From NCBI RefSeq assembly GCF_003352385.1, contig NZ_CP031243.1, positions 1,032,501 to 1,096,500 of the forward strand: a stretch of 64,000 nt of DNA, read 5' to 3'. The DNA is from Haemophilus haemolyticus. Its GTDB lineage: Bacteria; Pseudomonadota; Gammaproteobacteria; Enterobacterales; Pasteurellaceae. Of this stretch, positions 10,833 through 21,828 are shown piece after piece (position 1 is the stretch's first letter; each line of letters begins with the position of its first letter). The notes beneath the pieces were generated by a model, which worked only from the letters and a program-made list of their open reading frames with translations, made no database searches and was not told the DNA's origin. The position numbers and the translations under genes are program-made.

Positions 10833-11561
10833 TTGCTTACCCAAATTTTTTCATTTTTCAATCTGACTCCAATGGAAATCTCAGCGATTAATTTAAGTTT
10901 GAGTGTCGCTGTTAGTTCCATGCTTTGGAGTTTGCCGTTAGCCATTTTTGTCGCGTGGCTCTTAGCGCGTAAAAACTTCTATGGAAAATCCCTGATTACT
11001 GGCGTGATTCATTTACCTTTAGTGTTGCCACCTGTGGTTATCGGTTATCTATTGCTTGTGGCAATGGGGCGCAATGGTTTCATTGGTAAGTATTTATATC
11101 AGTGGTTTGGCTTATCTTTTGGTTTTAGTTGGAAAGGGGCGGTGCTTTCCTCTGCAGTGGTTGCCTTTCCATTGGTTGTTCGTGCGATTCGACTTTCTTT
11201 AGAAAATATTGATATTAAATTGGAGCAAGCGGCACAAACATTGGGTGCTTCCGCTTGGTGTGTATTTTTTACAATAACCTTGCCACTTTCTTTACCAGGG
11301 GTTTTAGCTGGACTCGTGCTTGGTTTTGCACGATCATTAGGAGAATTTGGCGCGACCATTACCTTTGTATCGAACATTGCAGGCGAAACTCAAACGATTC
11401 CACTTGCGATGTATTCTTTTATTCAAACACCGGGTGCAGAAAAACAAACCGCTCGCTTATGTTTATTTGCTATCATTCTTTCATTGATTTCTTTGTTATT
11501 GTCTGAATGGTTGAGCAAGCGAATGCAGAAAAAATTAGGACAAGGAAATGTTGCAGATTAA
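10833..11561 (+). CDS. modB: Molybdate ABC transporter permease
   Basis: Inner-membrane permease forming the molybdate channel. Five to six transmembrane segments are visible, with the EAA coupling motif near residue 135-155 ([23 protein letters not shown]) that docks on ModC. The start taken is TTG at 10833, because TAAGGA lies six bases upstream, giving 242 aa. An ATG at 10872 (MEISAINLS) would give 229 aa, the usual family length, but has no visible ribosome-binding site. The 3' end overlaps modC by 14 bases, so the two are translationally coupled. Confidence 0.9.
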
Positions 11562-12603
11562 TGTGAAAAAACAGCTCGGGCAACTTGCCTTGCAAGCGAA
11601 TATACAAGTGCCAGATCAAGGTGTGACAGCTATTTTCGGTTTGTCTGGTTCAGGTAAAACATCGCTGATTAATCTAGTCAGTGGCTTGATACAACCAGAC
11701 GAAGGATTCATCCGTTTAAATGACCGCACTTTAGTGGATATGGAAACCCAAGAATCATTGCCGACCCACCTGCGTAAAATTGGCTATGTATTCCAAGATG
11801 CGCGTTTATTTCCTCACTATACCGTGAAAGGCAATTTGCGCTATGGCATGAAAAATGTCTCGCAAGATGATTTTAATTATATTGTCGATCTTCTCGGCAT
11901 TACTCATTTATTAAAGCGTTATCCGCTCACGCTTTCTGGTGGTGAGAAGCAACGTGTAGCAATTGGTCGAGCATTGTTGGCTGAACCCGACGTTTTACTG
12001 ATGGACGAACCTCTTTCTGCCCTTGATGTTCCCCGCAAACGCGAGCTAATGCAATATTTGGAACGTCTTTCTAAAGAAATTAATATCCCGATTTTATATG
12101 TTACACATAGCTTGGACGAATTGTTGCGTTTAGCTGATCGCGTTGTGCTGATGGAAAACGGCATTGTGAAAGCCTATGACAGCGTAGAAAAAATTTGGAA
12201 TAGTGCTATTTTTGCCCCTTGGAAAGGAGAAAGCGAACAGAGCAGTGTGCTCGCCTTGCCCGTTCATTTGCATAATCCACCTTATAAAATGACCGCACTT
12301 TCCTTAGGTGAACAAGCGCTTTGGATTCATCAAGTACCCGCGAATGTAGGCGAGCGAGTGCGAGTTTGTATTTATAGTTCAGATGTTTCTATCACACTGC
12401 AAAAGCCAGAACAAACAAGCATTCGTAATATTTTACGTGGCCAAGTTGCACAAATTGAGATACAAGATTCCAGAGTGGATCTTGCCGTATTAGTGGAAGG
12501 GCATAAGATTTGGGCAAGTATCAGTAAATGGGCGCAAAATGAACTGCGTTTTGCTGTTGGGCAAGATGTTTATGTTCAGATTAAAGCGGTGTCGGTGATG
12601 TAG
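11548..12603 (+). CDS. modC: Molybdate ABC transporter ATPase
   Basis: ATPase subunit powering molybdate import. Walker A is GLSGSGKT (31-38), the signature is LSGGEKQR, Walker B is [11 protein letters not shown] and the switch histidine is in VTHSLDEL. The C-terminal third (about 285-351) is the MOP/TOBE domain that senses molybdate. It is 351 aa, full length. It begins inside the end of modB and is the last gene of the operon. Two uptake signals (11723, 12292) lie inside; the second is the last one before the fimbrial cluster. Confidence 0.96.
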
Positions 12604-12646
12604 TAAACGCTTTACTGAATAAAACACTAATACGACATAATATAAA

Positions 12647-12680
12647 AAACGCTTGTAGTTATATTACAAGCGTTTTTTTT
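12647..12680 (+). terminator. modABC terminator
   Basis: AAACGCTTGTA pairs with TACAAGCGTTT around a GTTATAT loop, followed by nine T. It isolates the mod operon from the fimbrial promoter. Confidence 0.9.
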
Positions 12681-12737
12681 TGCTTAATATCTAGAAAAAT
12701 AAAGAAATTTGTCAAATTACCCTGATGTTTATACAGC

Positions 12738-12766
12738 TTGCATTTTTTTTTTTTTTTTTTTAGAAT
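12738..12766 (+). promoter_or_regulatory. Phase-variable fimbrial promoter with a T19 spacer tract
   Basis: A run of 19 T (12743-12761) lies between the -35-like TTGCAT (12738-12743) and the -10-like TAGAAT (12761-12766, five of six consensus bases). In this sequence the spacer is exactly 17 bases and made only of T. Slipped-strand changes would move it to 15, 16, 18 or 19 and so alter transcription. Transcription would start near 12773, about 85 bases before the pilin ATG. The hif fimbriae of H. influenzae are switched by a similar logic, using TA repeats. Confidence 0.72.
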
Positions 12767-12858
12767 GGGTAAGTTTTTACTCTAAAAAATCGGGTTTAAA
12801 CGTGGTCATCCGATCTAGGATGAATTTTATTCTAAAGTTTTTATATAGGATGTTTAAA

Positions 12859-13506
12859 ATGAAAAAAACAATCTTAGCTTTATTAGCATTAGGTGCATTC
12901 GGTGTAGCTAATGCTGCTCCCAATCCACTCACTCCACACACTCCAATTGGTACTGCAATTCCATATCAAGCTGCAGATGCCACACCAGAAGGTGTAGGTC
13001 CTACTCACGCAAAAATTACTGTATTGGGTGAAGTACTTGATAACACTTGTGAAATTAAAGCAGGTGATAGAAACAAAACTGTTACACTTAAAAAAGTAGG
13101 TAAAAACCAATTAAAAAAACTAGGTGATGTTGCTGCAGACCAATTAATTCAAATTGAATTAGAAAACTGCAAAGCTGGTAATCCAGCACAAAACGGTAGT
13201 GGCGGTAAAAATATAACTGCTGCATTCCGTTCAACTAACAATGTTGATCACGTTAATAACGGTACATTGAGAAACTTAGCGGGTGCTCCTGATACTCCAG
13301 CTCAAAACGTAAACATCCAATTCTCTAACTTAGATGGTTCATCTATTCGCCTTGGTGCAGACGATCCAGCTAACAAATTACTAGGTATCCGTCCTTCAAC
13401 AGATGGTACTGGTCTTATTCAATTCAACGCTCGTTACTATGCAACTGGTATATCTACTCCTGGTAAAGTAAAAGCAGAAGCTGAATTAGACTTAGCTTAC
13501 GAGTAA
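12859..13506 (+). CDS. Major fimbrial subunit (chaperone-usher pilin)
   Basis: Structural pilin, 215 aa. A signal peptide (MKKTILALLALGAFGVANA) precedes a mature chain starting near APNPL. The immunoglobulin-like pilin fold shows the paired cysteines (DNTCEIKAG and LENCKAG) and the penultimate-tyrosine C-terminus (DLAYE) that binds the chaperone. The ATG at 12859 is chosen because AGGA ends eight bases before it and the signal peptide starts there; the open frame runs further upstream to a TTG but across the promoter. It is the first gene of the fimbrial cluster and is followed by its own terminator. It is not one of the fimbrial types I can name with certainty. Confidence 0.88.
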   Translation: MKKTILALLALGAFGVANAAPNPLTPHTPIGTAIPYQAADATPEGVGPTHAKITVLGEVLDNTCEIKAGDRNKTVTLKKVGKNQLKKLGDVAADQLIQIELENCKAGNPAQNGSGGKNITAAFRSTNNVDHVNNGTLRNLAGAPDTPAQNVNIQFSNLDGSSIRLGADDPANKLLGIRPSTDGTGLIQFNARYYATGISTPGKVKAEAELDLAYE

Positions 13507-13528
13507 GCTTAACTGATTCAATAAAATT

Positions 13529-13554
13529 AAGCCCGTCTTTGGCGGGCTTTTTTG
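13529..13554 (+). terminator. Leaky terminator after the major pilin gene
   Basis: AAGCCCG (13529-13535) pairs with CGGGCTT, followed by T. Because the chaperone, usher and minor subunits lie beyond it with no other clear promoter, it probably lowers their expression relative to the major pilin. Confidence 0.75.
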
Positions 13555-13604
13555 GGGTTTTAACTCTTATTTTGAGTATTCTGTTTACTTAGGGAGAATC
13601 ATCT

Positions 13605-14315
13605 ATGCTATCCATTTTTAAAAAATCGGCTTTTATTTCTGCCACTTCACTTATGCTTGCATTTGCAGTCTCATCTGCTCAGGCGAGTGTAATCATTCTC
13701 GGTACGCGTCTGATTTACCCGTCTAACCAAAAAAGCCTCAATGTTCAACTTAACAACCAAAACGGCACCCCTGCTTTAGTGCAAAGTTGGATTGAAGACA
13801 AACAAGGCAACCAAGCTAATATTCCTTTTATTATTACTCCCCCAGTAACACGTGTGGAGGGTAACCAAGGGCAAACCTTACGTATTACTTATACGGGCAC
13901 GCAAGCACTCCCAGAAGATCGCGAATCTCTCTATTATTTTAATTTATTGGATATTCCACCCAAACCAAGTAAGAAAGAGCTTAAAGATAGCCAAAATTAT
14001 CTGCAATTTTCAGTGCGTAGCCGTTTAAAAATGTTTTATCGCCCAAGCGGTTTACCTTATCCACCAGCAGAAGCCTATAACAAAGTGACTTGGCAAGCCA
14101 AAGGCGGCAAACTATGGGCAGATAACCCAACACCTTACTATTTAACCTTTACCCAAGCACAAGTGGGTGCAAAAGATGCCTCAGCGGCGGTGATGGTTGC
14201 ACCCTTTAGCCAAGGAGAATTTGACGTAAAAGGCGTAAGTAATGGTCAAAAAGTAAAATGGTCATTAATTAATGATTACGGTGGTGATGTAGCTGGAGAA
14301 TCTATAATTAAATAA
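13605..14315 (+). CDS. Periplasmic fimbrial chaperone (PapD family)
   Basis: Binds pilins in the periplasm, completes their fold by donor-strand complementation and delivers them to the usher. It is 236 aa. The signal peptide ends after SAQA (about residue 28), and the first mature strand SVIILGTRLIYPSNQKSLNV has the conserved RLIYP motif. Further family features are PPVTRVEGNQGQTLRI and ESLYYFNLLDIPPKP. The start follows TTAGGGAGA. The gene sits between the major pilin and the usher, 20 bases before the latter. Confidence 0.93.
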   Translation: MLSIFKKSAFISATSLMLAFAVSSAQASVIILGTRLIYPSNQKSLNVQLNNQNGTPALVQSWIEDKQGNQANIPFIITPPVTRVEGNQGQTLRITYTGTQALPEDRESLYYFNLLDIPPKPSKKELKDSQNYLQFSVRSRLKMFYRPSGLPYPPAEAYNKVTWQAKGGKLWADNPTPYYLTFTQAQVGAKDASAAVMVAPFSQGEFDVKGVSNGQKVKWSLINDYGGDVAGESIIK

Positions 14316-14335
14316 TTACCTAAAATCGATTTACC

Positions 14336-16933
14336 ATGAAAAAATTAACTTTAAACACTGCCTTAAGCCCGCTTTCTCTTGCATTAGGGCTGGCATTTGC
14401 AGGTTTTGTAGAAACAGCTTGTGCAGAAGAATCCCTGCCCATTTCACAAGAAGAGAAAGTGCCATTAGAAAGCAACGATGAAGATGTTGAGTTCAGTGCC
14501 ACCTTTTTACAAATGGGGGGGAATGGTTCTACTGTTGATGTTGCACGTTTCCAACAAAAAAACAGCGTTCTACCTGGTGAGTATCCTGCAGAAGTTTGGG
14601 TAAACGGCAAAGAAAAAGGCGAAATGACGTTGCGTTTTCGTGATAGCGAAAATGCGGCTCAACCACACGCACAGCTCTGCTTTACCCCAGAATTAAGTGA
14701 TTTACTCGATCTTGAACGGACTGCTATTAAACTTGCCCCAAAAGAAGATCAATGTGTCTCTATTCAAGAAGCAATTCCTGAAGGTAAAGCGGTGTTTAAT
14801 ACAGGGTTACAACGCTTAGAATTTACCATTGCACAAGCCTTAACCATCAATCGCCCACGTGATTATATTGCCCCAAGCCGTTGGCAAACGGGTAGCAGTG
14901 CTGCGTTTGTGAATTATGATGTAAACCACAGCCGTTATACCAGCCAATTTAATACGCACTCTTCGCAGGCATATTTAAATTTACGTACAGGTATTAACTT
15001 AGGCGATTGGGCATTTCGTCACTCTGGCTCAAAAGTATGGAGTGAAGCTGAGGGGCAATCCGCTCATATGCCATACCAAACTTACGAAACCTATTTGCAA
15101 AAAGATTTTGCCCCTATTCGTGGGATAATGACTATAGGTGATTTTTATACTTCAGGTCAATTTGTGGAGGGCTTTGCTCTCCGTGGGATCGGACTTGCAT
15201 CCGATGACCGCATGCTCTCTCCTTCCCAGATGGGGTTTGCTCCACGCATACAAGGTATAGCCAATAGTAATGCAGTGGTCACTATTCGCCAAAATGGTAA
15301 TATTGTTTATCAAACTAATGTAACCCCAGGGGCTTTTGTTATTGAAGACCTCTACTCTACGGGTTATAACGGCGATTTAACAGTAGAAATTAAAGAAGCT
15401 AACGGCCAAGTACGCTCCTTTATTGTGCCCTTTTCTAACATAGCCCCCCTTATTCGTATGGGGCAATTCCGCTATCAAGTTACCGCCGGGCGTTATCGTA
15501 ACGGACAACAAATTTATGATGTCAACGTTGGGCAAGCAATGTTGCAATATGGTTTACTTAACAATCTCACCCTCAATACGGGGGTTACGCTCACCCAAAA
15601 TTATCGGGCGGGCACTGTAGGGATTGGTTTAAACACGCCTATTGGTGCATTTTCATTTGATAACACTTGGACAAGAAGTATCTTCTTGCCTAACACAGTA
15701 TTAGTTGCTCAAGAGACATTAAACCAATACCGTGAAGTACGTGAAGGCTACAGCCTACACGGCAGTTATAGTATTAACTTTAACCGCACGGGTACCAACG
15801 TAACCCTTGCAGCTTATCGATACTCTTCTCGCGATTTTTATAATTTGAGCGATGTAGTAAACGCAAAACAATTTGGTAGTGAAAGTCAATTTTCATTAAC
15901 AGGAATGCGCCCAAGAAACCAATATCAGATCTCGCTTATTCAAGATCTGAAAGGCTTTGGTAGCCTCTATTTAGTCGGATCTACCAGCAACTACTGGAAT
16001 AGACCAGGAACTTATAGTCAATATCAAGTTTCCTACGCAAACAACTTTAAGCTGTTAAACTACCAGATTGGATTTTCACAAACGATTCACCGTGAAAATG
16101 GTCAACGTGATAACCAAATTTATCTTGGTTTCAGCATTCCATTAGGCCGCAACCATTCATTATCAGCAAACCAAACACGAGGTTCAGGGCAGAAAAATGC
16201 TCACGTTGGTATAAATGGCAGCTTCGGTGATTATAACCAATGGAGTTATGGTTTGCATACAAACTCAGGTCAAGCTGGGTATCGTAATATTTCGGGCAAT
16301 ATGAATTACCGCAATACACACTTTAACTTTAACTCTTCTATCTCAAAAGATAGCCACGGTTCACGACAATTTAGCAATGCGTTATCTGGCGTGATCGTCG
16401 CACACCGTTATGGCGTAACCTTTGGTGAATCTGTTGGTGAGAGCTTTGCGATTGTACACGCTGATGGTGCAGCAGGTGCGGAAGTCAATAGCGGTCAAGG
16501 GCAAGTGTTAGATTGGTTCGGCAATGCGGTATTGCCTTATACACAACCTTATCGTATTAACGAAATCGGGATTGACCCACAAAATCTACCGATTAATATG
16601 GAATTTGATAGCACTGAGCAGAAAATTATTCCACGTGCCAACAGCATTCATGTGGTGAACTTTGGTACTACACGTAATAGCCTAGTGTTGTTTAACCTTT
16701 CACGACCAAATGGCGAATTATTGCCAATGGCATCTGAAGCCTTTGATGATAAAGGAAATTTTGTCGGCTATGTTGTACAAGGTGGTGTGCTCTTTGCGAG
16801 CGGATTAAAACAGCCAAAAGGCACTATTACCGTCAGCTGGGCAAGCGGGGAAACAGGGCAATGCCGTTTTGATTATGAGGTGAAATTAGATAATGCTGAA
16901 CATATGCAACAACACACGAAACAGTGTAAGTAA
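14336..16933 (+). CDS. Outer-membrane fimbrial usher
   Basis: Outer-membrane beta-barrel that receives chaperone-pilin complexes and extrudes the fimbria. It is 865 aa, full length for the family. After a signal peptide (about 1-30, ending ACA) comes the N-terminal chaperone-binding domain (FSATFLQMGGN and VDVARFQQKN). The barrel with its plug domain (VTPGAFVIEDLYSTGYNGDL) follows, then C-terminal domains ending in a cysteine pair (GQCRFDYEV and the final QCK). A G7 run (14515-14521, residues 60-62) is a minor slippage risk: one extra G brings a stop seven codons later. The ATG is 20 bases after the chaperone gene. Confidence 0.95.
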   Translation: MKKLTLNTALSPLSLALGLAFAGFVETACAEESLPISQEEKVPLESNDEDVEFSATFLQMGGNGSTVDVARFQQKNSVLPGEYPAEVWVNGKEKGEMTLRFRDSENAAQPHAQLCFTPELSDLLDLERTAIKLAPKEDQCVSIQEAIPEGKAVFNTGLQRLEFTIAQALTINRPRDYIAPSRWQTGSSAAFVNYDVNHSRYTSQFNTHSSQAYLNLRTGINLGDWAFRHSGSKVWSEAEGQSAHMPYQTYETYLQKDFAPIRGIMTIGDFYTSGQFVEGFALRGIGLASDDRMLSPSQMGFAPRIQGIANSNAVVTIRQNGNIVYQTNVTPGAFVIEDLYSTGYNGDLTVEIKEANGQVRSFIVPFSNIAPLIRMGQFRYQVTAGRYRNGQQIYDVNVGQAMLQYGLLNNLTLNTGVTLTQNYRAGTVGIGLNTPIGAFSFDNTWTRSIFLPNTVLVAQETLNQYREVREGYSLHGSYSINFNRTGTNVTLAAYRYSSRDFYNLSDVVNAKQFGSESQFSLTGMRPRNQYQISLIQDLKGFGSLYLVGSTSNYWNRPGTYSQYQVSYANNFKLLNYQIGFSQTIHRENGQRDNQIYLGFSIPLGRNHSLSANQTRGSGQKNAHVGINGSFGDYNQWSYGLHTNSGQAGYRNISGNMNYRNTHFNFNSSISKDSHGSRQFSNALSGVIVAHRYGVTFGESVGESFAIVHADGAAGAEVNSGQGQVLDWFGNAVLPYTQPYRINEIGIDPQNLPINMEFDSTEQKIIPRANSIHVVNFGTTRNSLVLFNLSRPNGELLPMASEAFDDKGNFVGYVVQGGVLFASGLKQPKGTITVSWASGETGQCRFDYEVKLDNAEHMQQHTKQCK

Positions 16934-16948
16934 TAGGAAGAATAAATT

Positions 16949-17548
16949 GTGAAGAAATTGAAGATTCAATATTTATTCCTGCTAACAAGCGGTCTATTTT
17001 TTGCATCATTTGCCTCTGCCTATGATGGTGAAATACGTTTTAAAGCAGAAATTACCAAGGCGGGCACCTGTGAAGTAAGTACAGATTCGGTAAACAAAAC
17101 GGTTAATCTCAATATAACCTTAGCCCAAAATTTAATTAACCAAGGTTCTACTGCCAATGAAACGCCCTTTAAACTTAACGTTGAAAAGTGTGGCGACGTA
17201 ACAGACTCAAATCATATTAAATTTGCACTATCTAGAACTTCTGCTTCAGATGATTTACCTACAGGGGTGTTACCTAACAAGAACACTACAGCAATAAATC
17301 GGAATACGGTTGGTGTTCAACTCATTTCGAATAGTGGAACGCCCATTGAAATTGGATTTAGTCCATCGGGATTACCAACCATTACTCAATCACGACGCAC
17401 ATCAGGGAACGATCTAGGTGCTGTTTTAAAGCCTCCTTATGGCTTTGAAATCCCATTAAAAGCACGCTTTTATTCCCTAACTAATGGAATTGCAAATAAA
17501 GAAGGCCAAGTGGAGTCAGAAGTAACTTTTGCTGTATTCTACGAATAA
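16949..17548 (+). CDS. Minor fimbrial subunit 1
   Basis: Pilin-family protein of 199 aa. A signal peptide ends after FASA (about residue 24), followed by YDGEIRFKAEITKAGTCEV, with the second cysteine in NVEKCGD and a C-terminal TFAVFYE carrying the penultimate tyrosine. The start is GTG, preceded by ATAGGAAG. It is likely a minor shaft, adaptor or terminator subunit. It is 15 bases downstream of the usher and shares clear family resemblance with the next gene, so the two look like an old duplication. Confidence 0.85.
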   Translation: MKKLKIQYLFLLTSGLFFASFASAYDGEIRFKAEITKAGTCEVSTDSVNKTVNLNITLAQNLINQGSTANETPFKLNVEKCGDVTDSNHIKFALSRTSASDDLPTGVLPNKNTTAINRNTVGVQLISNSGTPIEIGFSPSGLPTITQSRRTSGNDLGAVLKPPYGFEIPLKARFYSLTNGIANKEGQVESEVTFAVFYE

Positions 17549-17561
17549 TTAAGGATCAAAA

Positions 17562-18194
17562 ATGAGAAATAATGCTGTTATATTTTTTTTATTACTGGGC
17601 ACATCGCTCTTTTCTTACGGACAAGCAGTAACCTCGGGAAAGGTTAAATTTACTGGTGAAGTTATTGCTGGGAAATTGTGCACGGTAAAAGCTGATTCAG
17701 TAAATAAAATCGTGCCACTAGGGACTATCTCAAGAGCTCAACTTCCTACAGCGGGGGCTACTGCTGGTAATCAAGAATTCACACTTTCGGTAACCGACTG
17801 TGGCATAGATATTTCTAACGCTAACAACCACCGTTTAACTTATTACTTTGTGTCTCCTGCTGCTACAATAAATCCTCTAGCTGGGGGCTATGACTATTAT
17901 TTAAAAAATACAGCGACATCACCTAACCAGAATAGCGTGGGAGTACAAGTCTTTATTAAAAATGGCACCAATGCAGGAAATGTGCTTCAGGTGACAAATC
18001 GGGCGTTGCCGAATACTAACAGAGACGGGGGTGGATACACTGGACGAGAATTAGGTGCAACCGTTACTGGCACAGGAGTTAATGCTGATGTTAATATTGA
18101 TCTCAGTGCTAAATTTTATGCTGTAACAAATGGTACTGCTGATAAACCAGGGCAAGTAACTAGCGAAATGAACTTTGAGGTATGGTATGAATAG
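17562..18194 (+). CDS. Minor fimbrial subunit 2
   Basis: Pilin-family protein of 210 aa. The signal peptide ends near GQA (about 22), then TSGKVKFTGEVIAGKLCTV, the second cysteine in TDCGID, and a C-terminal NFEVWYE. It aligns by eye with minor subunit 1 in the opening strand (KVKFTGEV against EIRFKAEI), in the DSVNKTV/DSVNKIV segment and in the closing ATNGTADKPGQVTSE against LTNGIANKEGQVESE. The start follows AAGGATC. Its stop overlaps the adhesin start by eight bases. Confidence 0.85.
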   Translation: MRNNAVIFFLLLGTSLFSYGQAVTSGKVKFTGEVIAGKLCTVKADSVNKIVPLGTISRAQLPTAGATAGNQEFTLSVTDCGIDISNANNHRLTYYFVSPAATINPLAGGYDYYLKNTATSPNQNSVGVQVFIKNGTNAGNVLQVTNRALPNTNRDGGGYTGRELGATVTGTGVNADVNIDLSAKFYAVTNGTADKPGQVTSEMNFEVWYE

Positions 18195-19416
18195 CACCCT
18201 AGTTAAAGTAAATAAAAAAATAACAGCTCTATCGCCAATTATGGCTATTGGGATAATTGCTATATTTGGTAGTTCCTCATTATGGGCAGCTGATAAGATA
18301 GGTAGATGGGAACCCCGTACAGCAGCCCAGCGTCCATATCTTGTTTTTGATAATAGGCTTGAAGTATCACATTATCCTGAAGGACCTGTTGTCAGTAACG
18401 TTTATACCTTTCCTCGAGATAATCCCCCCTCTTCTCTTGACATGAGTAATCTAACAACACGATTACCAAAAAAAGAATATAACATGGCAACTTATAGGAT
18501 TCCTGTTTCAGGGGTAAATACTTTAGGCTGTTTCCAAGCTCGTTATTTCATTGATAATCAGAATTTAACACCTATCTCAACTGCTTTTGGAACGGTGTGG
18601 CAAGTTAAAAGTTTCCCGTATTTAGGTTTTAAGATAAGAGTAAGAACACATACTCAAAGAAATGCAGGTATAGGGCAAAATTACGATCAATGGCATGATG
18701 TTAATTCAGCGGAGTTCACGTTTCCTACTAGCTGTACAGGTTCTGCAGCAATGAGGATAACCCCTAAGATGGAAATCGAACCTATAGTACTAAACAACAT
18801 TCCAACAGACCTCAAATTTGAGGATGGGAAAGTCGATATTAATTTGAGTAACATTACATTCGGGCGTTTCTATTTGCAAGGTCGAGATGCATCTACTGGA
18901 AACACTTGGCGAGTAGACGTAGAAGACGAGGGGGGGGCATCAATTATTGGTAGTAATGTAACCATTAAAATTAATGCCACAACTTGTGATATTACTGGTA
19001 CTAAAAATCATGCCCATAATTTCGGTAAAATAAGAAGTATCGATTTGAAGACGCCAAAACAAGGACCAGAGATGAGCATCATCGTAAACTGTGGGCGCTA
19101 TCAGATCGATCCCCATATTGTGTTTAGCGATGCAAACACACCTAACAACACAAGTGATGTATTAAGTATGTTTTACACTGGTGGCGTAGCATCTAACGTT
19201 GGCGTAAAATTACGTAAAAAAACGGATTCAACCTACATTAAATTCGGCCCTGATAGTTCTAAAAAGGGGATAACGAACCAATTTAAAATGACCCCTATCG
19301 GGAATAATCATTTTTCCGTTACGTTTACCCCTGAGTTAATTAAAAAGAATAGCAGTGCAAACGTAGATGGCGGCATTTTAGAAGGTTTAGCAACCTATAC
19401 GCTTTCTTATCAATAA
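18187..19416 (+). CDS. Fimbrial tip adhesin (two-domain)
   Basis: Last gene of the cluster, 409 aa. The start is ATG at 18187, with GAGG six bases upstream; the frame opens earlier at a TTG without support. A signal sequence ends after SLWA (about 34). Residues 35-190 form a domain I do not recognise, with a GCFQARYF cysteine and a TSCTG cysteine, presumably the receptor-binding part. Residues about 205-409 look like a pilin domain (NATTCDITGT and IIVNCGR cysteines, C-terminal TYTLSYQ). A G8 tract (18930-18937, codons 248-251) lies between the two cysteine pairs. Position, length and two-part build indicate a tip adhesin; the receptor cannot be inferred. Confidence 0.8.
   Translation: MNSTLVKVNKKITALSPIMAIGIIAIFGSSSLWAADKIGRWEPRTAAQRPYLVFDNRLEVSHYPEGPVVSNVYTFPRDNPPSSLDMSNLTTRLPKKEYNMATYRIPVSGVNTLGCFQARYFIDNQNLTPISTAFGTVWQVKSFPYLGFKIRVRTHTQRNAGIGQNYDQWHDVNSAEFTFPTSCTGSAAMRITPKMEIEPIVLNNIPTDLKFEDGKVDINLSNITFGRFYLQGRDASTGNTWRVDVEDEGGASIIGSNVTIKINATTCDITGTKNHAHNFGKIRSIDLKTPKQGPEMSIIVNCGRYQIDPHIVFSDANTPNNTSDVLSMFYTGGVASNVGVKLRKKTDSTYIKFGPDSSKKGITNQFKMTPIGNNHFSVTFTPELIKKNSSANVDGGILEGLATYTLSYQ
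18930..18937 (+). repeat. G8 homopolymer in the tip adhesin gene
   Basis: Eight consecutive G span codons GAG GGG GGG GCA. Adding one G gives GGC ATC AAT TAT TGG then TAG. Removing one gives CAT CAA TTA TTG GTA GTA ATG then TAA. Either slip would cut the protein before its pilin domain. Confidence 0.8.
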
Positions 19417-19424
19417 CCAAGCCC

Positions 19425-19508
19425 GTAGGGTAGGCGTAAGCCCACGAAAAATAAATATGCCTAAGGATAATTATTTGGGTTAAACGCGTGGGCTTACGCC
19501 CACCCTAC
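19425..19508. repeat. REP-type inverted pair (REPIN-like) after the fimbrial cluster
   Basis: GTAGGGTAGGCGTAAGCCCACG (19425-19446) is mirrored by its near-perfect complement at 19487-19508, with 40 bases between. Each arm is itself a small palindrome (GGCGTAAGCCCAC) preceded by GTAG, the tetranucleotide typical of REP elements mobilised by RAYT transposases. A related pair lies between nrdA and nrdB. Confidence 0.7.
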
Positions 19509-19554
19509 ATTGGATTATATGTTGTCATATCAATAACCCAGTTAAAACAAGTAT

Positions 19555-19584
19555 AAAGTGCGGTGAATTTTCACCGCATTTTTA
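19555..19584 (+). terminator. Terminator downstream of the fimbrial cluster
   Basis: TGCGGTGAA pairs with TTCACCGCA around TT and is followed by T. The left arm contains the first uptake signal (19556) seen after the fimbrial genes. The 384-base gap 19417-19800 holds only the REP pair, this hairpin and the betT promoter region; I see no gene in it. Confidence 0.75.
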
Positions 19585-19604
19585 CAGCTTTAATCTTCAC
19601 TAAT

Positions 19605-19633
19605 TTGAAATAATAACTGCATTTTGCTATTAT
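19605..19633 (+). promoter_or_regulatory. Candidate betT promoter
   Basis: TTGAAA (19605-19610) and TATTAT (19628-19633) are 17 bases apart, each five of six from consensus. This leaves a leader of about 160 bases before betT, containing a small hairpin TGCCTCTAGGCA near 19735. Confidence 0.45.
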
Positions 19634-19800
19634 ATATTGGCTTTTAGGAAACAAACCTTCAATTCCTACTGAACGTTTCCTTCAAAATCGCACTTCTATG
19701 TGCTGTCATTTGTAGTGGTTCCATTACACATTTTTGCCTCTAGGCAATGTTTATTAAATCTATTTTTTAATCTATTCACTTAATCGTTAAGGGGAAAAGT

Positions 19801-21828
19801 TTGTCTTTATTTCAATTTATGACAAAGCGAACGTCATTTAATCCTTTGGTAATTGGCGTTACATTATTTTTTGTGTTGTTACTTATGGCGATGATTTTAA
19901 TTGTTCCAGCACAAACTCAAGCATTATTGAATCAAGCTAAAACTAGCATTTTTGCCAATTTTAGTTGGTTTTATGTTCTCACTTTTTCAGTGTTTTTAGG
20001 ATTTTTATTAATTTTATCAGTAAGTAGTCTTGGCAATATAAAACTAGGGCAGGACGAAGAAGAACCTGAATTTAGTTTCTTATCTTGGCTTGCGATGTTA
20101 TTTGCCGCTGGAATGGGAGTTGGGCTGATGTTTTTTGGCGTAGCAGAACCATTAACCCATTATCTTTCTGACATTACAACAGGTTCAGCTGAACATAAAC
20201 AACAAGAGGCTTTACTTCACACCCTGTTCCACTGGGGCATTCACGCTTGGGCAGTATATGGCACCATTGCTTTAGCATTAGCTTATTTTGGGTTTCGTTA
20301 TAAATTGCCTTTAGCATTGCGCTCTTGTTTTTATCCTTTATTAAAAGAGCGTATTAATGGCAAAATCGGCGATGCGATTGATGTTATGGCGTTACTTGCT
20401 ACGTTATTTGGGATTATTACTACATTAGGTTTCGGTTCATCACAGCTTGGTGCAGGGCTTGAACAAATAGGTTGGATAAGTCAGAACAGCTTTGCTTTAC
20501 AAGTTGGCGTTATTGTTGTGGTAATGTGTTTAGCGGTGTTTTCTGCCATTTCTGGTGTTGGAAAAGGCGTAAAAATATTAAGTGAAATTAACTTAACTTT
20601 AGCATTTTGTTTACTTCTTTTTGTTTTAATTGCAGGCCCTACGTTATACCTTTTATCTGCATTTAGCGACAACATTGGTAATTATTTTAGTAATTTAGTG
20701 CAACTCAGCTTTAAAACTTATGCTTATGAGCAAGAACACACAAGTTGGTTTAGTGGATGGACGATTCTTTATTGGGCATGGTGGTGTTCTTGGGCTCCGT
20801 TTGTTGGCTTATTTATCGCTAGAATTTCCAAAGGACGAACTATTCGTGAATTTATTTTTGGCGTATTAGTTATTCCAAGTTTATTTGGTATTTTATGGTT
20901 TACTGTTTTTGGTAATACAGCAGTATGGCTGAATGATGGTATTGCTGCAGGTAGTCTTGGGGAATTTATTTCTTCACCAGAGATCTTGTTATTTAAATTT
21001 TTAAATTATTTGCCTTTGCCAACAATAACTGGCTTTGTGAGTTTATTAGTGATTTCATTGTTTTTTATCACTTCGGCAGATTCAGGTATTTATGTGTTAA
21101 ATAACATTGCATCTCGAGATAAAAGTTTAGCTTCGCCTGCATGGCAAGCGATAATGTGGGGAACTTTGATGTCAGTTGTTGCAATTGTACTTATGCAATC
21201 TGGTGGACTTGCTAATTTGCAAACAATGACATTAATTGTTGCCTTGCCTTTTGCTTTATTGATGTTGGTAATGTGTTTTAGTTTATGGAAAGGCTTAATT
21301 GCGGATAAAAAATATTTTTCTACTAAAGTCAATCCAACTAGTATTTTCTGGAGCGGCGATAAATGGAAATCACATTTAGAGCAAATGATGAACCAAACGC
21401 AAGAGAAAGATATTTTACGTTTCCTTAAAAATACGGCGTTACCCGCTATGCGAGAATTACGTCAAGAATTAACAGGAAAATATAATTTAAGTGTAGAAAT
21501 CAACACATTATTTGAGCAAGAAGAGCCAGCTTTGGAATTGGTAATTCATAAAGAATCAATGCGAGATTTTATGTATGGTATTAAATCTGTTGGGCGAGAA
21601 GTGTCAGAGCAATTAATTAATGATGAAAATCTACCGCACATTCAGCATAGTGTTACTTACGAGCCTTACACTTATTTCTTTGATGGACGAGTCGGTTACG
21701 ATGTTCAATATATGGATCAAGATGAATTGATTGCCGATATGTTGAAACAATATGAACGTTATCTAAGTTTGCTTGATGATGTGGGTCAGGAACTGATGGC
21801 ACACGAGCAAACCGAACTAGCAGAGTAA
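19801..21828 (+). CDS. betT: BCCT-family choline/betaine transporter
   Basis: Sodium- or proton-coupled uptake system for choline or related quaternary amines. It is 675 aa with about twelve transmembrane segments. The BCCT signature aromatic box is in TILYWAWWCSWAPFVGLFIARISKGRTIREF, with MLFAAGMGVGLMFFGVAEP earlier. The long hydrophilic C-terminal domain (about 510-675) is of the type that senses osmolarity in BetT. The start taken is TTG at 19801, because AAGGGG ends six bases before it; an ATG at 19819 (MTKRTSFNP) gives 669 aa without a ribosome-binding site. H. influenzae uses choline for phosphorylcholine decoration of LOS, but that route uses LicB, so the substrate role is inferred. 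Confidence 0.9.
   Translation: MSLFQFMTKRTSFNPLVIGVTLFFVLLLMAMILIVPAQTQALLNQAKTSIFANFSWFYVLTFSVFLGFLLILSVSSLGNIKLGQDEEEPEFSFLSWLAMLFAAGMGVGLMFFGVAEPLTHYLSDITTGSAEHKQQEALLHTLFHWGIHAWAVYGTIALALAYFGFRYKLPLALRSCFYPLLKERINGKIGDAIDVMALLATLFGIITTLGFGSSQLGAGLEQIGWISQNSFALQVGVIVVVMCLAVFSAISGVGKGVKILSEINLTLAFCLLLFVLIAGPTLYLLSAFSDNIGNYFSNLVQLSFKTYAYEQEHTSWFSGWTILYWAWWCSWAPFVGLFIARISKGRTIREFIFGVLVIPSLFGILWFTVFGNTAVWLNDGIAAGSLGEFISSPEILLFKFLNYLPLPTITGFVSLLVISLFFITSADSGIYVLNNIASRDKSLASPAWQAIMWGTLMSVVAIVLMQSGGLANLQTMTLIVALPFALLMLVMCFSLWKGLIADKKYFSTKVNPTSIFWSGDKWKSHLEQMMNQTQEKDILRFLKNTALPAMRELRQELTGKYNLSVEINTLFEQEEPALELVIHKESMRDFMYGIKSVGREVSEQLINDENLPHIQHSVTYEPYTYFFDGRVGYDVQYMDQDELIADMLKQYERYLSLLDDVGQELMAHEQTELAE

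Follow-up and report, generated by a model that had tools for sequence, protein, structure and literature searches.

A poly-T tract as the probable variable promoter spacer of a fimbrial operon in Haemophilus haemolyticus, and the recurrence of its arrangement in the Pasteurellaceae

Does a run of 19 T ahead of a fimbrial operon in Haemophilus haemolyticus act as the adjustable spacer of a phase-variable promoter? The run lies in a stretch of 64,000 nucleotides (nt) of contig NZ_CP031243.1 (RefSeq assembly GCF_003352385.1, positions 1,032,501 to 1,096,500 of the forward strand), which we analysed as a whole and call the window, and it stands between modC and six genes of a chaperone–usher fimbria (Table 1). 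A sequence-only reading of the window had proposed such a switch, and its account of the letters is exact: TTGCAT and TAGAAT are 17 bases apart, the spacer consists entirely of T, and the tract is by far the longest homopolymer in the window, the next being a T9 at 12673 inside a terminator-like hairpin in the gap between modC and the promoter. We find that the tract is most likely a promoter spacer and phase-variable; more fully, we put at roughly three in four the probability that it is the variable spacer of a sigma-70-type promoter driving the six-gene operon, and that this promoter is one example of a recurring Pasteurellaceae module.

In order to avoid circularity, we took every listed tract of at least 12 T from 140 Pasteurellaceae genomes regardless of its flanks, and merged those sharing identical 20 nt flanks. 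One genome (G021), with 61 such tracts on one strand, was left out as a likely artefact, and places such as those in G131–G136 fall outside the listed set. This gave at least 120 distinct tracts, and dropping five of 120 with fewer than 20 nt downstream left 115. Fifty of the 115 directly abut ANAAT, where 1.59 would be expected by shuffling, and all 50 have a TTG within 14 nt upstream (13.8 expected). Four nt past the ANAAT, one of AAGTTT, AGGTTT, AAGATT or TAGTTT is found in 43 of the 50; the same motif occurs at 12 of the 65 other tracts, most of which carry a variant −10 such as AAACT. An upstream TTG accompanies 11 of the 12 tracts having the motif with a variant −10, and 26 of the 53 having neither feature. 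Counted over the 50 tracts, the −10 is followed by any base, G (76 %), G (94 %), a mixed position (G 46 %, A 32 %, T 22 %), and then A (86 %), A (86 %), G (90 %), T (84 %), T (98 %) and T (100 %). The resulting family consensus, N-G-G-R/T-A-A-G-T-T-T, matches the region behind the −10 element in the window.

Searches with explicit patterns gave the same picture. A first module pattern was found at 14 places in 12 of the 140 genomes, and a version allowing tracts of seven or more T at 36 places in 24 of the 140 genomes, belonging to 11 of 43 genera, the reversed control giving no match in either case; a single genome (G113) holds seven modules, with tracts of T9, T9, T11, T12, T17, T17 and T17. 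The start-site motif was also considered as a general promoter motif, and this was rejected. Within the genus TANAATNNNNAAGTTTTT is not enriched (11 places compared with 16 for the reversed control, four of the 11 being poly-T modules). Across the family TANAATNGGNAAGTTT occurs at 79 places against 35 for the control, with at least 32 directly after a poly-T of seven or more; as the remaining 47 barely exceed the control, the motif is tied to poly-T. The poly-T modules L099, L101 and L131 (genera g14, g14 and g19) share a constant upstream TCCGCAGGGRTTGA and precede small, dissimilar membrane or unknown proteins; they look like a repeated promoter cassette.

The length of the tract depends on what precedes it. 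With the −35 assigned to the nearest TTG, zero to eight bases lie between TTG and the tract, and tract length falls as that number rises (rho −0.72, n = 50), none of 20,000 permutations yielding totals equally tight. Where no base intervenes the tract is T19 in eight of 11 cases, with two bases it is T17 in eight of 21, and with seven it is T12–T14 in six of six, a class on which the cut at 12 T itself acts. For the 41 modules with five or fewer intervening bases rho is −0.60, with 0 of 20,000 permutations equalling the observation by spread and seven of 20,000 by how many spacers fall at 15–17; when each of the 35 sequence clusters is represented once, rho is −0.74. Since tract length compensates for neighbouring bases, selection appears to act on the total spacing, and the tract behaves as a spacer. 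This, together with the recurrence of ANAAT and TTG, backs the earlier assignment of the T19 tract to the space between the −35 and −10 of a fimbrial promoter. The spacers themselves measure 15 in 24 of the 50 modules, 16 in seven, 17 in three, 14 in five and 8–13 in 11; among the 36 modules of the set with seven or more T, 15 occurs in 15 and a tail runs down to five.

We next turn to the operon in related genomes, where the sequence-only reading had suggested that tract length be compared; it differs. An orthologous usher (71–72 % identical) is present in four of 10 Haemophilus genomes besides that of the window, and no match was found in five of the 10 genomes of the genus. Their promoters carry T14 in H. 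haemolyticus M19501 and T17 in H. haemolyticus M19187, H. aegyptius NCTC8502 and G007, so that spacers counted from TTGCAT are 17 in the window, 12 in the T14 ortholog and 15 in the three T17 orthologs. Compared with the window, the 120 nt upstream show four to seven substitutions and 0–2 indel events, the 100 nt downstream two to seven substitutions and 0–2 indel events, and the tract a difference of two to five bases; as at hif, the number of repeats varies among related genomes with conserved flanks. The distance from the tract end to the pilin ATG is 97 nt in four of the five loci, including the window, and 106 nt in one. Six homologous genes in the order of the window, with modC upstream, are found in M19501, M19187 and G007, a gene order of the aef3 type (see below), with an extra ORF (open reading frame) between modC and the promoter in M19187. 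The fifth gene has its longest match in H. aegyptius NCTC8502 at the fourth gene, and about 650 bases remain there before the adhesin; no betT was found within the 22.6 kb examined in that genome, the G007 stretch being shorter. At this locus modC is 97–98 % identical and, in the two H. haemolyticus loci, betT 98–99 %, and across the orthologs the pilin is 47–50 % and the adhesin 39–40 % identical to that of the window. A conserved promoter and leader thus stand ahead of diverged pilin and adhesin genes.

The genome of the window (1,973,061 bases, one contig) points the same way. It contains two tracts of at least 12 T in total on both strands, and both stand at fimbrial promoters; a T14 pattern finds the identical pair. 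The second is a T16 (895679–895694) in the arrangement TTGTA-T16-AGAATGGGGAAGTTTTT, immediately 5′ of the pilin gene of a second fimbrial operon and 1.7 kb upstream of an usher gene whose product is 53 % identical to that in the window, the layout being that seen at T19.

In order to describe what lies behind the module, first features after the 50 tracts were classified by Pfam for 30 of 63 proteins, by N-terminal likeness for the rest, and by eye for lipoproteins. Exported or surface proteins follow 30 of the 50 modules: eight trimeric autotransporters, six chaperone–usher pilins, six lipoproteins, four BapA-like adhesins, two GA-domain adhesins, two Flp pilins and two exported coiled-coil proteins. 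Three are followed by TerC-like proteins, five by other or unclear features, and 12 have no near ORF. These last resemble small RNA (sRNA) genes, being units of about 100 nt (L090, L091, L103, L107, L108, L112, L123, L124, L132 as a tandem pair, L138 and L139). In all 12 a 5′ hairpin starts at, or no more than 2 nt from, the G of AAG (mean z −2.7); the same loose hairpin test is passed by 21 of the 38 other modules (mean z −0.8). The units also share a TTTTATTCAT-like box, and 10 of the 12 pass our script's energy cut for a terminator-like hairpin, at +86 to +112. These 5′ hairpins support a start at or beside the G of AAG, which in the window is 12773; the start predicted near that position by the sequence-only reading therefore agrees with a motif common to many loci. 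A box-pair pattern for the units gave eight places in seven of the 140 genomes (control one); G036 holds two nearly identical copies in tandem, and the 10 Haemophilus genomes hold none. No tRNA was found in the ORF-less modules by ARAGORN and no Rfam family at gathering cut-offs; the Rfam search of these loci returned signal recognition particle RNA elsewhere in two loci and weak sub-threshold matches only in five. When the units were aligned, no base pair reached consensus, and the resulting model was set aside. The units probably represent an undescribed Pasteurellaceae sRNA family.

Taken as a variable spacer, the tract would work as follows. The number of T alone would fix how far the weak −35 (TTGCAT) stands from the −10, which is good and has a G-rich discriminator (TAGAAT-GGGTAAG); slipped-strand mispairing during replication would add or remove T residues; and each change would alter both the spacing and the rotation of −35 relative to −10, and hence transcription of all the fimbrial genes. 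We infer from the comparisons slippage inside a clone, an effect on transcription, a start near 12773 and fimbrial phase variation. The T14 allele, with its spacer of 12, is predicted to be weak or OFF whether the optimum is 15 or 17, and across the family tract length probably tunes surface proteins on or off.

Several points weigh against this interpretation. TTGCAT matches TTGACA at three of six positions (TAGAAT matches TATAAT at five of six), and a consensus promoter scan requiring nine of 12 does not list the T19 site; over positions 12500–20000 that scan returned 16 sites compared with 20.1 in shuffles, and because the consensus match is no better than chance the promoter reading rests on comparison. 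The textbook optimum for a promoter spacer is 17, and the length seen had been taken as optimal and presumably ON. This part of the earlier account is not supported, as the family mode is 15 (24 of 50; 15 of 36), the four orthologs have 12 or 15 and never 17, and with a mode that departs from the textbook value lengths are not convertible into ON or OFF. The cut at 12 T removes short tracts and forces a spacer of at least 15 or 16 if seven or eight bases precede. Five genomes of different species clusters were compared, one for each species-level cluster, so that differences in the tract are evolutionary and not clonal, which bears on switching within a strain. The order-level sample of 394 genomes, with the module in five of 34 Pasteurellaceae and no match in the 360 genomes from outside the family, counts in favour, but with the reservation that those 360 are larger and probably less AT-rich, giving a lower chance of a match per se. 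Lastly, 12 of 50 modules precede sRNA-like units and three of 50 TerC-like genes, neither of which is an obvious target of phase variation; as the sRNA-like units share the promoter, the promoter class is not confined to phase variation.

The last observation leads to the strongest alternative, which we nevertheless regard as unlikely: an ordinary, constitutive Pasteurellaceae promoter class whose spacer is T-rich by chance, with length differences reflecting neutral drift inside tolerable limits and no switch. It would accommodate the sRNA-like units, all 12 of which have spacers of 14–17 (partly forced by the cut at 12 T), and the spacing near 15 in 24 of 50 modules, expected if one length is best. 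It fits poorly with the 11 of 38 other modules with spacers of 8–13 and the eight of 36 with spacers of 5–10 in the set with seven or more T, both beyond the usual working range, and with the 30 of 50 modules placed ahead of surface or exported proteins; furthermore, runs of 12–20 identical T are hypermutable. A good deal less probable is that the tract acts through DNA curvature or the rotation of upstream elements, as a rheostat of the sabA type. Although Helicobacter has a T-tract promoter that works in this way (sabA; PMC4081817), and hia-like poly-T tracts of this genus have no −10 behind them, the T run directly abuts ANAAT in the window and at 49 other family tracts, and its length compensates for the bases after TTG, as a TTG to −10 spacing would require. 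Less probable still, in our estimation, is an error of assembly or sequencing in the T count, since the only two such tracts of the genome both lie at fimbrial promoters and orthologs in other assemblies carry tracts too. Some platforms do miscall long homopolymers, the G021 tracts look artefactual, and the exact count of 19 could be off by one or two. Finally, a translational switch, in which slippage would frameshift an N-terminal pilin extension (a TTG-started frame, 12709–13506, runs through the tract in register with the pilin and is open at T19), was rejected as highly implausible, because the pilin frames of the four orthologs open only past the tract, the gap from tract to ATG is 97 nt in four loci and 106 in one, and the pilin carries a signal peptide of its own, its gene having a ribosome-site-like AGGAT immediately 5′ of 12859.

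Homopolymers inside a promoter spacer are known from Mycoplasma vlp (poly-A) and Neisseria porA and fetA, in other clades and at other targets. Closest to the window are the aef operons of H. influenzae biogroup aegyptius (Strouts et al., 2012; PMC3309571), of which aef1, aef3 and aef4 have mononucleotide repeats of 10–17 nt upstream of aefA, in putative promoters proposed to be phase-variable; E and F are additional genes of aef3. That operons of this type are switched by a homopolymer has thus been proposed in print. The T17 operon of H. aegyptius NCTC8502 is an ortholog of the operon in the window and would correspond to aef3; the window differs in its T19 and in its diverged subunits (pilin 47 %, adhesin 39 %). 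The aef passages of that paper describe neither the start-site motif nor a family-wide module. For F3043, Power et al. (PMC2651432) listed an A17 ahead of a pilin gene. Phase variation in H. influenzae is known chiefly from tetranucleotide repeats, and that 2009 survey claims to give the first indication of a possible role for mononucleotide repeats. At hif and haf of H. influenzae, a (TA)n between the −10 and −35 controls fimbrial transcription (van Ham 1993, cited in PMC2651432 and PMC9820224); genus and position of the repeat, between the two elements, are as in the window, but the unit there is a dinucleotide that changes in 2 bp steps and serves two divergent promoters. The hia gene of H. 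influenzae, for a trimeric autotransporter adhesin, has a poly-T/A tract upstream (PMC2651432, Table 7) of its core promoter, whereas the tract in the window abuts the −10. In Bordetella fim2, fim3 and fimX (PMC1891110) a homopolymer in the fimbrial promoter likewise tunes transcription, as poly-C rather than poly-T. Helicobacter sabA (PMC4081817) has a poly-T of T5–T22 among strains, exerting multiphasic control of an adhesin promoter, and differs in that the tract works on the axial alignment of UP-like elements and core promoter. Searches of PubMed Central (PMC)-licensed text turned up no title or abstract on the spacer-filling layout with compensation, a common start-site motif and a spread over unrelated surface genes. 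Judged from sequence comparison, what appears to be new here is the family-wide poly-T spacer module, of which the operon in the window would be a further member.

A broader proposal, which we hold evenly balanced between right and wrong, is that TTG(N0-8)-T(n)-ANAAT-N-G-G-R-A-A-G-T-T-T defines a class of Pasteurellaceae promoters. Its homopolymer would make up all or most of an adjustable spacer, with tract length compensated in evolution for the bases beside it, and the class would have been recruited repeatedly by unrelated surface genes, in some species several times in one genome (as in G113), each gene with an independent, length-coded setting. The recruits would include chaperone–usher pilins, trimeric autotransporters, BapA-like and GA-domain large adhesins, lipoproteins and an Flp pilin, as well as, with a variant −10, fHbp/TbpB-like lipoproteins. 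A working spacing of about 15 bp may reflect overwound poly-T DNA, which is perhaps also the reason that natural modules cluster there. G-rich discriminators contact sigma region 1.2, and in this class the discriminator may make the response of a weak −35 graded instead of all-or-none. A recognizable module would allow length-tuned surface genes to be predicted from sequence alone throughout the family, whose members live as commensals or pathogens of animals and humans, and it raises a biophysical question, namely why natural poly-T spacing settles at 15 and not at 17.

Table 1. Features of the T19 promoter and fimbrial operon (positions in the window)
Feature	Coordinates	Strand	Remarks
modC	11548–12603		Upstream of the T19 promoter
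Terminator-like hairpin and T run	12644–12678	+	In the modC–promoter gap
−35 element TTGCAT	12738–12743	+	Last T doubles as the first T of the tract
T19 tract	12743–12761	+	17 of its T form the spacer
−10 element TAGAAT	12761–12766	+	TATAAT in the H. aegyptius ortholog
GGGTAAGTTTTT, conserved discriminator/start-site motif	12767–12778	+	From position counts over 50 tracts and pattern searches with reversed control
Predicted transcription start (G)	12773	+	7 nt past the −10; from the hairpins of sRNA-like units
Small 5′ leader hairpin TCATCC-GATCTA-GGATGA, then ATTTTATTCT	12806–12823	+	Also in four orthologs
Major pilin	12859–13506	+	215 amino acids; Fimbrial domain (Pfam PF00419, E 1.2e-14)
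PapD-type chaperone	13605–14315	+	
Outer-membrane usher	14336–16933	+	71–72 % to orthologs; FimD and PapC relatives in PDB
Minor pilin	16949–17548	+	
Minor pilin	17562–18194	+	
Putative tip adhesin	18187–19416	+	409 amino acids; C-terminal Fimbrial domain, residues 259–409

As expected of a chaperone–usher system, a PapD chaperone, an usher and Fimbrial-domain subunits are specified in a single operon, downstream of which lies a BCCT transporter gene. With the cut-offs applied, Pfam, NCBIfam and PDB gave no match to the first 250 amino acids of the adhesin. Within this gene, a G8 at 18930 is the longest G run of the window and is a possible second slippage site acting at the level of the reading frame. 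The leader hairpin ahead of the pilin gene may serve as an attenuator, or else as a stability element.

A scan of genome contigs for ushers, not including the genome of the window, returned 12 loci, nine of them with distant ushers (29–32 %). Among the loci inspected, the gap between chaperone and usher genes, 20 bases in the window, is about 0.5 kb in L027 (G002), and in L029 (G007) a frame of 95 amino acids made of internal repeats (MKYIHFTVGLRPPYE...) lies between the two genes. L034 and L035 contain (TA)10 and (TA)9 close to ushers. In L037 (H. aegyptius G006) a fimbrial promoter about 1.6 kb ahead of the usher at 1646317 has its TTGACTTTTC and TAGAAT separated by G15, with TGAGCAGTTTTTT next; it is a poly-G version with a similar start-site motif.

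In the 10 Haemophilus genomes there are 14 tracts of at least 12 T, spread over seven genomes. Five of these belong to the promoter in the window and its orthologs, and one to that of the second fimbrial operon. A lipoprotein-like gene follows two others, in the module TTGCR-T14-ANAAT-NRGAAAGTTTTT, and two lie elsewhere. Three (T57, T17 and T21) lie ahead of Hia-like trimeric autotransporter genes, and one more (L052) has upstream sequence resembling theirs; as no −10 follows the Hia-like tracts, they represent a separate architecture. The longest of them, the T57, is found at L044 (G007:C1:1051630), upstream of its Hia-like autotransporter gene.
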